A DNA stretch of 64,000 bases. Origin: Neisseria subflava (lineage in GTDB: Bacteria > Pseudomonadota > Gammaproteobacteria > Burkholderiales > Neisseriaceae). Positions 2,385 through 21,700 of the stretch are shown one piece after another. The notes under the pieces were generated by a model. The model had not been told where the DNA came from, searched no databases, and was given only the letters and a program-made list of their open reading frames with translations. The stretch is taken from positions 1,178,001 through 1,242,000 of the forward strand of contig NZ_CP073117.1 of NCBI RefSeq assembly GCF_024205745.1. The letters are read 5' to 3'. A program made the translations under genes and the position numbers. The first letter of the stretch is position 1. Each line of letters opens with the position of its first letter.

Positions 2385-2945
2385 TTATTTTATTTCATTA
2401 AATCTATCGTTTAAGTGGCTTAATTTTGTAGCTAATAATGGAATTTTTGATGAAGATATTTCAGTCCATAATTTCAAGCCACTTTCTAAATCATTTAATA
2501 AGTTTTGTTCAATCAGCCATAAATAACAATTAATATTTTGTTTTTTGAATGAATTAACATAATTTTGGAAGTTGTTCCATCCTCCTCCAATTCCTTCAGC
2601 AGCGATTCTTCCTCGTCTGAATACATACCATTGTTTTGTTTTAATACACTCTAATACTATTGCTGGTAAATGATAAAAAGTACTTGGTTCTGATTCAAAA
2701 AGAATATGTATTCTTGGTTCTTCAAGTAATGGAATGTATTCAAAAATTTTACCTTGATCAAAAGATATGAATCGGCTTTTTTCAGACTTTTTAGATGTGT
2801 CATTAACATCAGATATTTCAGTATTCTTTATGAGCTCTTTTGCTCTTTCTTCAGTATTTTGATTTTGTGTAATATCGTTGGAATTTCCTACCTTATTTGC
2901 AAGAATACTGGCAATAATACTTAACACAAAGTCTGTAGGGCTCAT
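2385..2945 (-). CDS. AT-rich hypothetical protein in the carA-carB interval
   Basis: Encodes 186 residues and is not recognised as any family. The start at 2945 is supported by an AGGAG 8 bases upstream. The first 15 residues are hydrophobic ([15 protein letters not shown]) and could be a membrane anchor or weak signal. A polar Asn/Glu/Lys-rich stretch follows to about residue 58, then a more globular part with aromatic residues ([23 protein letters not shown]). No enzyme motif is visible. The gene is much richer in A+T than carA and carB and carries no DNA uptake sequence, which suggests a late arrival. It ends 10 bp before carB, so the two are probably co-transcribed. The carA-carB interval is known to vary in Neisseria, which fits a cargo gene rather than a carbamoyl-phosphate synthase component. 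Confidence 0.75.
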
Positions 2946-2995
2946 AACATAATCTCCTATTAATCATAATTAAACAAGCAAGCCGTAGCCCGCAT

Positions 2996-3084
2996 GTAGG
3001 GTGTGTGCGGTACGCACGCACGCGTTTTCCATTGTCCCTGCAACCCCAATCCACCGCATGCGCGCCTTGCGGCACACACCCTAC
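2996..3084. repeat. imperfect inverted repeat, about 89 bp
   Basis: Perfect 13-bp arms (GTAGGGTGTGTGC at 2996-3008 and its reverse complement at 3072-3084) enclose GC-rich sequence that extends the pairing imperfectly. It lies in the non-coding stretch between the unknown gene and the first SemiSWEET copy. It looks like a small dispersed intergenic element, but no second copy is visible in the window. Confidence 0.5.
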
Positions 3085-3243
3085 CGATGGGTTCAAAGGC
3101 CGTCTGAAAAAACGCTCGCGGGGTTTGTTCCATCTGCCTTGCGATAAAAAACTACCTGAAAAATTCCTGCTATTGATATTTTGGCCACTTTTTTCAGACG
3201 ACCGTTTGCGTTTTTATTTTGCACAGGCCGTCTGAAAACTTCC

Positions 3244-3501
3244 TTAAAAACTAGTGATAAATGTAATCAAACCCAAAATAATGCCTGGGGCGTTTGCCAG
3301 TATGATGGGGTAGTCGCGTTTTTCTTTCAAAAAGCCGTAGGCAAACCATAATGTGCAGTTGATGGCGGCGACGAGGGGTTGCAACGGCGAGCCGGGGTTG
3401 CCGGCAAGGTTGTTTTGGATTTGCGGGATATAAGAAACGTACATACCGACGCCGGCCAGGGTGGCGGTGACGGAAAGAATGTGCATTTGTTTTTCAGTCA
3501 T
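3244..3501 (-). CDS. SemiSWEET-family sugar transporter, copy A
   Basis: An 85-residue membrane protein of the bacterial SemiSWEET (MtN3/PQ-loop) family, which acts as a homodimer moving small sugars by facilitated diffusion. Three hydrophobic helices are visible, at about residues 8-28, 41-58 and 65-83. The family Pro-Gln pair is at 26-27 (SYIPQIQ). This length is normal for a three-helix half-transporter. This copy has Gly17; the tandem copy at 3580-3837 has Ser17, the only difference between the two proteins. Both sit between carA and carB on the same strand and are probably read from an upstream promoter. The family call is firm; the substrate is unknown. Confidence 0.88.
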   Translation of the reverse strand: MTEKQMHILSVTATLAGVGMYVSYIPQIQNNLAGNPGSPLQPLVAAINCTLWFAYGFLKEKRDYPIILANAPGIILGLITFITSF

Positions 3502-3973: not shown

Positions 3974-5104
3974 TTATTGTTTTGCTGCTTTGATATTGTC
4001 AATGAATTTGTCGAATAGATAGCCGACGTCTTGCGGGCCCGGGCTGGCTTCGGGGTGGCCTTGGAAGCAGAATACAGGTTTGTCTGTCAGTTCGATGCCT
4101 TGCAAGGTGTTGTCGAACAAGGATTTGTGGGTAATGCGTGCGTTGGTGGGCAGAGTGTCGGCATCGACGGCGAAACCGTGGTTTTGGCTGGTGATGACGA
4201 CTTTGCCGCTGTCTAAATCTTGTACAGGGTGGTTGGCACCGTGATGGCTGAAGCGCATTTTCAGGGTTTTCGCACCGATGGCGAGGCTGATCAGTTGGTG
4301 TCCTAAGCAAATGCCGAAAATCGGTTTGCCGCTTTCCATCAGTTTTTGTACGGCTTTGATGGCGTAGTCGCAAGGCTCGGGGTCGCCGGGGCCGTTAGAC
4401 AGGAATATGCCGTCAGGATTGAGTGCCAAGACATCTTCCGCGCTGGTTTGTGCGGGAACAACGGTCAGGCGGCAGCCGCGTGAGGCGAGCATGCGCAGGA
4501 TGTTGGTTTTGACGCCGAAATCGTAGGCAACGACGTGGTAAGGCTGTTCGGAAGGTGTAACAAAACCTTTGCCCAATTCCCATTCGCCTTCTGTCCATTC
4601 GTAAGTTTCTGTGCAGGAAACTTCTTTTGCCAAGTCTTTGCCGACCATGCTACCGAATGCGGCAATCAGTTCTTGTGCTTTTTCAACGGTGGCATCCGCA
4701 CCGGTCAAGATTGCACCGCCTTGTGAACCTTTTTCACGCAACAGGGTGGTCAGGCGGCGGGTATCAATGTCGGCGATGGCGACGGTTTTGTTGCGTACCA
4801 AATAGTCGTGCAGGCTTTCGGATGCGCGGAAGTTGCTGTGCAAGAGCGGCAGGTCGCGGATAATCAAACCGGCGGCGTAAACGCTGCGGCTTTCTTCATC
4901 TTCGGCGTTGGTGCCGGTGTTGCCGATGTGTGGGTAGGTGAGGGTAACGATTTGTTTGCAGTAGGACGGGTCGGTCAGGATTTCCTGATAGCCGGTCATG
5001 GAAGTGTTGAACACGACTTCGCCGGAAGTCGAACCTTCGTAACCGATTGATGTGCCGTGAAATACGCTGCCGTCAGCGAGAACGAGAAGAGCCGGAGTGG
5101 TCAT
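3974..5104 (-). CDS. carA: carbamoyl-phosphate synthase small (glutaminase) subunit
   Basis: Hydrolyses glutamine and channels ammonia to CarB for carbamoyl phosphate synthesis. It has 376 residues, the normal length. The N-terminal CPSase small-chain domain carries the typical [10 protein letters not shown] and [12 protein letters not shown] motifs. The C-terminal class I glutamine amidotransferase domain has the catalytic cysteine in GICLGHQL and the His-Glu pair in GHPEASPGP, with SNGPGDPEP as the oxyanion-side motif. It is separated from carB by 1.6 kb of accessory genes. A long leader with two terminator-like hairpins precedes it (5178-5267), so transcription may be controlled by attenuation. 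Identity is certain. Confidence 0.98.
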
Positions 5105-19384: not shown

Positions 19385-19511
19385 TGGAACAACTGGTTTG
19401 GCGGGCAACGGAGACTTCAGGACGGAAGAAGGGTTGCTTGGGTGTATTCATAAAATTGAAGTTAAGAAAGTTTCAGACGACCCCTAGAGATCGTTTGAAC
19501 GATGAGAAATA

Positions 19512-19829
19512 TCAGTGGTAATTTGTGCCGTCAGTGTAGCCGTTTCCTGATTTGTCCACAGCAAAAGCAGAAATCGGACCGACCGTTACTGTCCCTTTAG
19601 GCTGAGTTTCTTGGTAATACTCATATGCTGCAACACCCATACCAGTTGCAGCACCAACAGCAGCACCAATTGTGCCACCGACCATAATAGCTGGTCCGGC
19701 AGGAATACTGCCAAAAGCTATACCGACACCCAGACCAATACCTGCACCATTTGCTCCTCCTTGAAGGATTCTCTCTCCTAAGCCTCCTCCATAAATTAGT
19801 TCCAGATCCTCAATGGATAGTTCAATCAT
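19512..19829 (-). CDS. bacteriocin-like peptide precursor with double-glycine leader
   Basis: A 105-residue precursor starting at ATG 19829 (AAGGA 8 bases upstream), rather than the in-frame TTG at 19847. The first 15 residues, MIELSIEDLELIYGG, fit the double-glycine leader (LSxEEL, hydrophobic, GG) cut by C39 peptidase/ABC exporters. The predicted mature part, about 90 residues, begins GLGERILQGG. It has a long Gly/Ala-rich hydrophobic core with repeated GxxxG-type spacing (about residues 24-72) and a polar C-terminus. This is typical of pore-forming class II bacteriocins and microcins. The start lies one base after the stop of the small membrane-protein gene, so expression is coupled. No exporter gene is in the window. 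The leader is seen directly; killing activity is inferred. Confidence 0.75.
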   Translation of the reverse strand: MIELSIEDLELIYGGGLGERILQGGANGAGIGLGVGIAFGSIPAGPAIMVGGTIGAAVGAATGMGVAAYEYYQETQPKGTVTVGPISAFAVDKSGNGYTDGTNYH

Positions 19830-19830
19830 G

Positions 19831-20040
19831 TTATTTTTCCTTTTCAAAAAAATTAGATGTAGAATATTGAGTCAATACACCCAATATGGAAAAAATAATA
19901 AAAGCATGAATATAAATCATAAAATCAACATTATCTCCTTGGTAGCTTTCATAAATAAAAACGATTGGTATTGATATACAAATTAAAATGTACAGGTACT
20001 TTGAAATTACCAGTAACTTATACACAAATTTTGATTTCAT
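19831..20040 (-). CDS. small two-helix membrane protein, candidate immunity protein
   Basis: A 69-residue protein, not recognised by family. Two hydrophobic helices are clear, at about residues 7-29 and 39-59, with basic and polar ends (MKSKFVYK and FFEKEK). Its stop (19831-19833) is one base from the ATG of the bacteriocin-like gene, so ribosomes can re-initiate directly. Small polytopic membrane proteins coupled to bacteriocin genes are often immunity proteins; that role is inference from position and topology. The region is AT-rich and has no DNA uptake sequence. The start is preceded by only a weak AGG-type site. Confidence 0.65.
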   Translation of the reverse strand: MKSKFVYKLLVISKYLYILICISIPIVFIYESYQGDNVDFMIYIHAFIIFSILGVLTQYSTSNFFEKEK

Positions 20041-20043
20041 AGC

Positions 20044-20217
20044 CTAGTCTTTCATTTGAATAAAATCTACCCTAATCAACTTTCCAACCAACTTCCTAAC
20101 TTCTTCATGCTTTCCCTGATTGAAGTTAACCAGTAGATTTTTCAACAATATGTATATTATGTTAAATAATAAATGGTAATTGTCACATTCAAATATTAAG
20201 GATAACCTACTTTGAAA
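20044..20217 (-). other. 57-codon open stretch directly upstream of the small membrane gene
   Basis: The frame is open from just after a TAG at 20218-20220 to a TAG at 20044-20046, which is 3 bases before the next start. It lacks a convincing start codon. The translation is protein-like: a hydrophobic run (HLLFNIIYILLKNLLV), then a charged end (GKHEEVRKLVGKLIRVDF). It could be the 3' remnant of a truncated first gene of the operon, or a chance frame in AT-rich DNA. Confidence 0.3.
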
Positions 20218-20412
20218 CTATATCGCTTTGATGCGTAATTCTATAAAAAACATTGAATTTTCATGTTTTCTATTTATCCAGTATTTTGGAGTTGATAAGT
20301 GAGAGCAAAAAACTTTGGAAATCTACGATTCTCCTTCCAACACCTCATCATTTCTCTAGAGAATTTAGGCAAAGGCGATATTGATAACTCATTTCATTAA
20401 ATAGAACCAAAT

Positions 20413-20431
20413 GAGAATGAGAATGATTTAT
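20413..20431 (+). promoter_or_regulatory. Fur-box-like element upstream of ferritin genes
   Basis: GAGAATGAGAATGATTTAT matches 13 of 19 positions of the Fur consensus built from NATWAT hexamers. It lies about 50 bases before the predicted -35, which would suit activation or remote repression by iron-loaded Fur. Confidence 0.45.
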
Positions 20432-20483
20432 TTATAAAATCCTTTTAAATTAATGGGTTACAATAAAAATTGATAAAATAAAA

Positions 20484-20512
20484 TTGACTATTCTCAATAA
20501 AATGAGTAAAAT
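20484..20512 (+). promoter_or_regulatory. sigma-70 promoter of the ferritin operon
   Basis: TTGACT (20484-20489), an exact 17-base spacer, then TAAAAT (20507-20512). Both hexamers are one base from consensus, and the site is well placed for the ferritin gene starting at 20579. Confidence 0.7.
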
Positions 20513-20578
20513 TCATCCGCAAATACAAATTTTGTATTGTGATACATCTATTAACCGCATTAAGAAAAGGAGTTAGTT

Positions 20579-21064
20579 ATGCTAAGTAAGTCAATTACAG
20601 CAAAATTAAACGAACAAATTAATCTCGAGTTGTATTCATCAAATGTCTATTTGCAAATGAGTGCATGGTGCCATAAACATGGTTATGAAGGCGCTGCAGC
20701 ATTTTTACTTCGTCATGCCGATGAAGAATTGGAACATATGCAAAAGTTGTTTACTTATGTGAGCGAAACCAGTGGAATGCCTTTGTTAGGTAAAATTGAC
20801 GCCCCTAAACACGATTACGCTTCATTAAAAGAAGTTTTTGAAACAACACTTGAACACGAAAAACTAGTGACATCTAAAATTAATGAGTTAGTTGAGAGTA
20901 CTTTTGCAGAAAAGGATTACTCTACTTTTAACTTCTTACAATGGTATGTAGCTGAACAGCATGAAGAAGAAAAATTATTTAACAGTATTGTTGATAAATT
21001 CAAACTTCTTGGTGAAAGTGGTACAGCGCTCTACTACATTGATCGTGAATTAAAAACTTTATAA
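20579..21064 (+). CDS. ftnA: ferritin, Pasteurellaceae-like, copy 1
   Basis: Non-haem ferritin that oxidises Fe(II) and stores it in a 24-subunit shell. It has 161 residues, normal for FtnA. The ferroxidase ligands are in place: Glu17 in NLELYSS, Glu50 and His53 in DEELEHM, a central Glu in TLEHEKL, and Gln/Glu in [11 protein letters not shown]. There is no haem-ligand Met signature of bacterioferritin. AAGGAG precedes the start. The sequence and AT-rich codon use look like Haemophilus tandem ferritins, unlike the neisserial bacterioferritins. The pair lies in a DUS-free stretch and is followed by a Haemophilus uptake-signal core at 21655. Confidence 0.95.
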
Positions 21065-21080
21065 GAATAGGAGAAATAAA

Positions 21081-21578
21081 ATGTTATCAAATAGCGTGAT
21101 TAAACTATTAAATGATCAAATGAATTTAGAGTTTTATTCTTCTAACTTATATTTACAAATGAGCGCCTGGTGCGAACAACAAGGTTTCGAAGGAGCTGCA
21201 AAATTTTTATCAGAGCATGCGGCTGAGGAAATGCAGCATATGCGTAAACTCTTCACTTATTTAAATGAGACCGGCGCATTGGCTATCATCACACAAATTG
21301 ATGAACCACCTCATCAATTTTCATCATTGAAACAAGTACTTGAATTAACTTATGAACATGAAAAGTTAATTACCTCTAAAATCAATGAATTAGTTGGTAG
21401 AACTTTTGAAGAGAAAGACTACTCTGCCTTTAACTTCTTACAATGGTATGTGGCTGAACAACATGAAGAAGAAAAATTATTCAGTGGAATTTTGGATAAA
21501 TTAAATCTTCTTGGTGAAGATGGTAAAGGTTTGTTCTTAGTTGATAAAGATTTAGGCGCATTAACAACAAACAACTAA
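21081..21578 (+). CDS. ftnA: ferritin, Pasteurellaceae-like, copy 2
   Basis: Tandem paralogue of the gene at 20579, 165 residues, 16 bases downstream with its own AGGAG. The ferroxidase centre is conserved (Glu17, Glu50, His53, [11 protein letters not shown]). Similarity between the two is clear but far from identity, so the duplication is old and probably predates transfer. Haemophilus influenzae carries a similar adjacent ferritin pair (from memory), and mixed shells of two subunits are possible. Codon use is AT-rich, like copy 1 and unlike the surrounding genes. Confidence 0.95.
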
Positions 21579-21592
21579 TCAAGTCTGATGAA

Positions 21593-21627
21593 AAAGGCTA
21601 AGTCATTATCGATTTAGCCTTTTTTTA
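21593..21627 (+). terminator. rho-independent terminator of the ferritin operon
   Basis: AAAGGCTAA (21593-21601) pairs with TTAGCCTTT (21614-21622), and a T-run follows. Its stem carries no DUS, unlike most terminators in this window. Confidence 0.85.
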
Positions 21628-21654
21628 TATCAAAATCTAGCTACTTTTGTCTAA

Positions 21655-21663
21655 AAGTGCGGT
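21655..21663 (+). other. Haemophilus-type DNA uptake signal core (USS)
   Basis: AAGTGCGGT, the 9-base core of the H. influenzae uptake signal, with further A upstream and a T/A-rich tail (CTTTAA) downstream, as in the extended consensus. It lies 77 bases after the second ferritin gene. A given 9-mer is expected about 0.5 times by chance in 64 kb on two strands, so its position matters more than its presence. Confidence 0.65.
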
Positions 21664-21700
21664 GCTTTAACGGTTCATTCTTACCGCCGATTAGGTTTTG

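Follow-up and report, generated by a model that had tools for sequence, protein, structure and literature searches.

Class II microcins of the microcin V type, described in Enterobacteriaceae, carry an N-terminal double-glycine (GG) leader, have mature masses of ~5-10 kDa, and go with an ABC exporter bearing a C39 peptidase domain (C39-ABC) and an HlyD adaptor, as set out in the excerpted parts of a review (PMC10233263). In the siderophore, or class IIb, microcins, a conserved Ser/Gly-rich C-terminal region goes with modifying enzymes of the producer's cluster, according to the same excerpts (PMC10233263). In Moraxella catarrhalis, the GG bacteriocin McbC is encoded with a 74-aa immunity protein, McbI, and with its own export genes, and the portion of that report cited here also names NMB0091 of N. 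meningitidis with other GG-leader peptides (PMC2761928), so that such Neisseria peptides are not new as such. In N. gonorrhoeae, GG peptides are also encoded in the AT-rich nap island, which was acquired horizontally, in the sections of the account cited here (PMC11798529).

The locus described here lies on the minus strand of a 64,000-nucleotide stretch of Neisseria subflava DNA (the window). It is probably an orphan cassette derived from the interior of a Neisseria microcin-type operon of class II; it would be non-secreting and would provide immunity if anything useful. Like the class II microcins in the excerpts of the review, its precursor has a GG-type leader, here of 15 residues, and a predicted mature peptide (90 aa, 8.6 kDa, pI 4.9, Gly/Ala-rich) within the ~5-10 kDa range; a probable immunity gene lies alongside, and C39-ABC and HlyD genes are present in its intact relatives. 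Unlike them, the locus itself has neither exporter nor adaptor, and Pfam and NCBIfam scans of both proteins gave nothing above a cut-off. Assignment to class IIb was rejected, as the C-terminal tail, DKSGNGYTDGTNYH, follows the pattern GNxY..DG[TC][NDG]Y where a Ser/Gly-rich region would be expected, and the enzyme that goes with it is a JmjC oxygenase. The McbC/McbI system, as far as the cited portion goes, differs in its four-gene operon without an oxygenase and in the position of mcbI, which comes after, not before, the peptide gene. The nap island was also rejected as a counterpart, on different genes, charge and size: in the cited sections the mature Naps have 16-36 residues and a pI of 9-10.1 and stand beside NapP and NapF, whereas the peptide here would come from an HlyD/C39-ABC operon and its genome has no detectable C39 gene.

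The first-pass annotation had described a GG-leader precursor one base after a two-helix gene, itself preceded at 3 bases by a 57-codon frame, and coordinates and hydropathy agree with this anatomy (Table 1). The hydrophobic stretches of the 69-aa protein span approximately residues 9-29 and 38-57 (19-residue Kyte-Doolittle mean >1.6); a single base separates its TAA from the peptide ATG, ahead of which stands an AAGGA stretch. The block had also been called AT-rich, which holds for the membrane-protein gene (23.3% GC) and the 57-codon frame (28.2%) but not for the peptide gene (47.5%; window, 49.5%), and free of DNA uptake sequences (DUS); indeed, neither of the two 10-base DUS cores sought, GCCGTCTGAA and GTCGTCTGAA, occurs in 19512-20217, and the nearest one lies just outside at 19472. 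Counting leader motifs in the window gave no discrimination, and the pattern used did not pick up the peptide itself. Three features had escaped the annotation: the oxygenase source of the 57-codon frame, the start of an HlyD gene past the right edge, and the common tail. The whole cassette accordingly spans 20150-19393, beyond the 19512 end first noted. Because window 20150-20054 aligns with the oxygenase gene at its 3′ end, the 57-codon frame reads as largely an oxygenase remnant, in its later part; 33 residues align with the oxygenase at a score of 124, against a maximum of 56 in 1000 shuffles.

Table 1. Features of the cassette and of the insertion that contains it (window coordinates).
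Feature	Position	Strand	Remarks
Microcin-type precursor, 105 aa	19829-19512	-	ATG start; starts MIELSIEDLELIYGG, then G; leader = MIELSIEDLELIYGG
C-terminal tail DKSGNGYTDGTNYH, last 14 peptide residues	19515..19556	-	common to otherwise different peptides of oxygenase-bearing loci
Two-helix membrane protein, 69 aa, family A, probable immunity protein	20040-19831	-	TAA one base ahead of peptide ATG
57-codon frame	20217-20044	-	ends 3 bases before membrane-protein ATG
RoxA-like JmjC oxygenase gene, 3′ end; left cassette edge	20054..20150	-	84.5% (L065) and 85.6% (L084) to full-length genes
HlyD-type adaptor gene, first 59 bases (MNTPKQPFFRPEVSVARQ); right cassette edge	19393..19451	-	HlyD by Pfam on intact L064 gene
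Insertion = cassette + ferritin pair	19393..21685	.	by comparison with G037 (L103) and G024 (L104)

The edges of the cassette are sharp. Window 19556-19393 shares 92.1% and 93.3% DNA identity with the operons L065 (N. gonorrhoeae DSM 9188) and L084 (G019), respectively; the match covers the tail codons, which in those operons end another peptide, the spacer, and the HlyD start. No DNA match to the membrane-protein gene or to the body of the peptide was seen in L065 and L084, which carry a family B pair there instead; with another pair between matching edges, these loci reveal a variable middle between constant ends. Host DNA common to G037, G024 and G035 resumes exactly at 19392, and at the empty site in G037 and G024 window position 19392 lies 3 and 0 bases, respectively, from 21689 or 21686. 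Since the MFS-transporter side and the pgi side meet there so closely, 19393 to ~21685 is an insertion, consisting of the cassette and two ferritin genes and flanked by an MFS-transporter gene (PF07690), which we take to be ampG-like, and by pgi (PF00342). G036 carries the same insertion, as a single 12.5-kb alignment with the window, at 94.6% identity, spans the region. The cassette is 97.0% identical to that of G023 over 334 bp, while pgi is only 80% identical, which points to a recent transfer of the cassette; the frames neighbouring the cassette in G023 and G009 differ from those in the window.

Stretches of up to 20 kb around exporters were examined in genus-mates. In five of them, L046 (G028), L064 (N. 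dentiae), L060 (G043), L062 (G034) and L059 (G038), the order is oxygenase, membrane proteins with leader peptides, HlyD and C39-ABC, some small genes lying between HlyD and C39-ABC. These related pairs in HlyD and C39-ABC operons bear out the earlier identification of a precursor of the class II microcin type alongside a gene probably for immunity. The L064 adaptor is HlyD_3 by Pfam, and the L046 exporter has the Peptidase_C39, ABC_membrane and ABC_tran domains. The RoxA-like oxygenase is 383-387 aa long in these five operons; the one protein scanned, from L046, matches JmjC_2 (E = 7e-30) and ROXA-like_wH, and H139, D141 and H204 of the HxD...H motif are invariant in all six aligned sequences. 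By JmjC_2 and this motif the neighbour gene would encode a JmjC oxygenase of the RoxA type with predicted hydroxylase activity. Its best PDB match is NO66 (E = 5e-7), with MINA also matched, and its AlphaFold model (mean pLDDT 45) was too poor for fold-library comparison. Like RoxA, NO66 and MINA, the enzyme has JmjC_2, a ROXA-like wing and HxD...H, but it is distant in sequence and stands beside microcin-type genes in the stretches examined. Full-length oxygenases also occur in L065, together with HlyD and an interrupted exporter frame, and in L084 and L085 (G004), where export genes are broken or missing. The gene was found in 11 of 83 family genomes, all from Neisseria, with a full-length copy in eight of the 11, and in none of 369 genomes sampled across the class (E<=1e-20), a weak limit, as that sample held no known positive. 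A description of leader peptides linked to a JmjC oxygenase was not found among the papers listed from an open-access library, a body that mostly leaves subscription papers aside. As a side observation, L060 contains two oxygenase half copies (2642-3259 and 4150-4773; residues 203-382, with the same first residue 203), both of them followed by a further membrane-protein gene; they are compatible with cassette exchange and might form a silent-cassette array. Likewise, a second microcin-type cluster of G043 without an oxygenase (L045, 1372-13308) has several GG peptides, HlyD, C39-ABC and an outer-membrane-factor-like gene, presumably TolC, and no tailed frame.

The tail, searched for as GN.Y..DG..Y ahead of a stop, goes with the oxygenase. 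At least one tailed frame is present in all eight loci with a full-length oxygenase compared with none of the seven intact HlyD/C39-ABC loci without one (Fisher p = 1.6e-4), and in 5/5 oxygenase loci with an intact exporter compared with 0/7 (p = 1/792, hand-calculated); these loci are related to each other and the p values serve as guides. The count leaves aside 14 of the 29 sources, namely one stretch truncated where its contig ends, loci whose exporter is broken or distant, stretches with a stand-alone C39, solitary pairs, remnants, and the window itself. Four of the 14 (L047, L049, L050 and the window) are tailed, and all four contain a remnant of the oxygenase; such remnants are also present in L051 and L086, which lack the tail. 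The tailed frame is continuous with a leader in six of the eight oxygenase loci and shifted against it in L065 and L084; several leaders end in GA or GS instead of GG, and three peptides in oxygenase loci have shortened tails. Tailless leader peptides also occur there, at L065 9340-9687 (a GG peptide with the Cys-rich end NCQCGEDCHCDPCNC) and L060 6827-7132. When one exact tail variant was searched for in 46 whole genomes, all six matches fell in oxygenase loci of G012, G028 and G043, and the backward control gave two. As the tail is found in 8/8 oxygenase loci and in 0/7 without, the oxygenase probably acts on tailed peptides, and it may hydroxylate the tail or dock on it.

At E<=0.01, the peptide has matches in six of 46 genus genomes, its own included, the relatives being G036 (99%, with two stops in frame), G009 (83%, broken), G008 (50%), G015 (43%) and G028 (27%). 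The last of these (G028:C19) was regarded as a chance match and sits in a longer frame; the Gly-rich core also weakly matches unrelated frames. The GG leader, whose conservation among homologues had been proposed as a check, is kept in G009, and the G008 and G015 homologues have GG leaders. With leader-bearing homologues in other species and sharp homology edges to microcin-type operons, the block stands above chance. The peptide query confirmed nothing in genome_contigs, had no match in plasmids and hit one solved structure weakly (E = 0.12); MccV matches of two relatives and a Bacteriocin_IIc match of one were weak and below cut-offs, and an NCBIfam scan of eight proteins from related operons gave nothing.

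The 69-aa protein is a probable immunity protein. Its matches at E<=0.01 are likewise in six of 46 genus genomes, its own included (G023, 99%; G009, 91%; G036, broken; G043, 32%; G028, 27%). With queries taken only from other loci and a limit of 600 bases between peptide and membrane protein, a family A peptide lies beside a family A membrane protein in six of eight loci, of which the window and L049 are near-copies; pairing is seen in three of six loci for family B (L060 being outside this count) and in 5/5 for family C. Membrane proteins without a partner peptide are of family A in L046 and L051 and of family B in L066 and L086. In G023, the membrane protein is kept with four synonymous changes and one nonsynonymous, and homology stops after the first four peptide codons; in G009, it is intact, and the peptide DNA gives way to exporter codons from residue 464 onwards, although dN/dS there is 0.45 on few changes, which speaks against retention. 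This survival of the membrane protein after loss of the peptide is in keeping with an immunity gene, which may persist once its weapon is gone, and selection might be what retains it. Orphan immunity proteins have been discussed for streptococci, in the cited part of that work (PMC2806384). Retention is not general, since both genes are broken in G036, whose copy of the pair (L049, 7078-7616) has a deletion that shifts the membrane-protein frame.

The genome of this strain is complete, a single contig of 2,213,981 bases (2.21 Mb). The C39 peptidase profile PF03412 found nothing in it, and matched 20 of the 46 genus genomes, a set that includes this one as a miss, and 8 of 14 control genomes. 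Twelve of the 20 have an open frame of 698-730 aa of the exporter type, the one in G014 with one stop inside; the remainder have shorter frames only, mostly stand-alone C39 genes. A full-exporter query gave 34 matches in the genome, and among the 17 listed none starts before residue 161, so that none of these covers the peptidase part. The oxygenase gene was not found at the sensitivity used. Since neither oxygenase nor C39 exporter was found, the precursor would be neither modified nor exported by that route, and the useful product, if any, would be immunity.

By analogy to class II microcins, an intact operon would encode together a RoxA-like oxygenase, at least one pair of membrane protein and leader peptide, HlyD and C39-ABC; the exporter would cleave after the leader and secrete the peptide, presumably antibacterial, and the small membrane protein would protect the producer. 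The oxygenase would probably hydroxylate the peptide, most likely in the common C-terminal tail or docking on it. Natural transformation or rearrangement could then have put only the middle of such an operon next to ferritin genes of foreign origin, in the interval from the MFS-transporter gene to pgi, where it might confer immunity against relatives still making the peptide. Read in this way, the odd gene pair becomes a traceable fragment of an operon type that links leader peptides to a JmjC oxygenase, and offers a natural test case, in transformable bacteria, for the persistence of immunity genes after their weapons have been lost.

The first-pass annotation had instead supposed a functional bacteriocin locus dependent on an exporter from another part of the genome. 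The leader and peptide frame are intact and preceded by AAGGA, as it would require, and G008 does carry a solitary pair at 2.39 Mb with a C39-ABC exporter at a separate place, 1.11 Mb. However, the absence of any C39-type exporter from the genome had been set beforehand as one ground for refutation, and as no C39 part was found by PF03412 or among the matches listed for the full-exporter query, export by a borrowed C39 system is unsupported in this strain and its present export as proposed falls away; with no detectable oxygenase in the complete genome either, a working locus is highly improbable. A plain decaying remnant, debris adjoining the ferritin insertion in which selection acts on neither gene, is a real possibility on the doubtful side, and overlaps the orphan-cassette reading as to origin. 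It is favoured by the broken frames of G036 and the fused peptide of G009, as well as by promoter-like sites at chance level (six found, 5.1 expected, both strands) and terminator-like sites at zero (0.9 expected), but both frames are intact in the window, and G000, G023 and G009 all have an intact membrane protein even though the peptide is broken in the latter two. The cassette is most likely a non-secreting leftover, immunity-only or decaying.

As to the tail, it could be conserved as a recombination anchor for cassette exchange, with the oxygenase acting on another target, for example the ribosome or the exporter. The match to L065 and L084 begins exactly at the tail codons, so the tail is a DNA homology edge as well, and in L060 additional membrane-protein genes follow the two oxygenase half copies; recombination could account for part of the conservation. 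Nevertheless, the amino-acid pattern of the tail is kept in loci with diverged peptides (L059, L062 and L085), and the seven intact exporter loci lacking the oxygenase lack the tail too, which makes a pure anchor rather unlikely. We put forward a broader picture that falls a little short of being probable: a class of Neisseria microcins in which the C-terminal tag GNxY..DG[TC][NDG]Y would be hydroxylated by a dedicated JmjC oxygenase, and in which a variable middle of immunity gene and peptide core would be traded by natural transformation between constant ends, namely the oxygenase 3′ end and the tail with the HlyD start, leaving orphan immunity cassettes behind. If the oxygenase does modify the tail, this would be a second tag-and-enzyme solution beside that of the siderophore microcins.

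The two ferritin genes within the same insertion (20579-21578; PF00210; 33% GC) share 81% DNA identity over 993 bases with G334, whose genome belongs to a different family of the class; this suggests that the pair originated outside the Neisseria family. A AAGTGCGGT motif, which we take to be a Haemophilus-type uptake signal, stands at 21655, and the 4-kb stretch of G334 (L106) has three AAGTGCGGT motifs and no GCCGTCTGAA.
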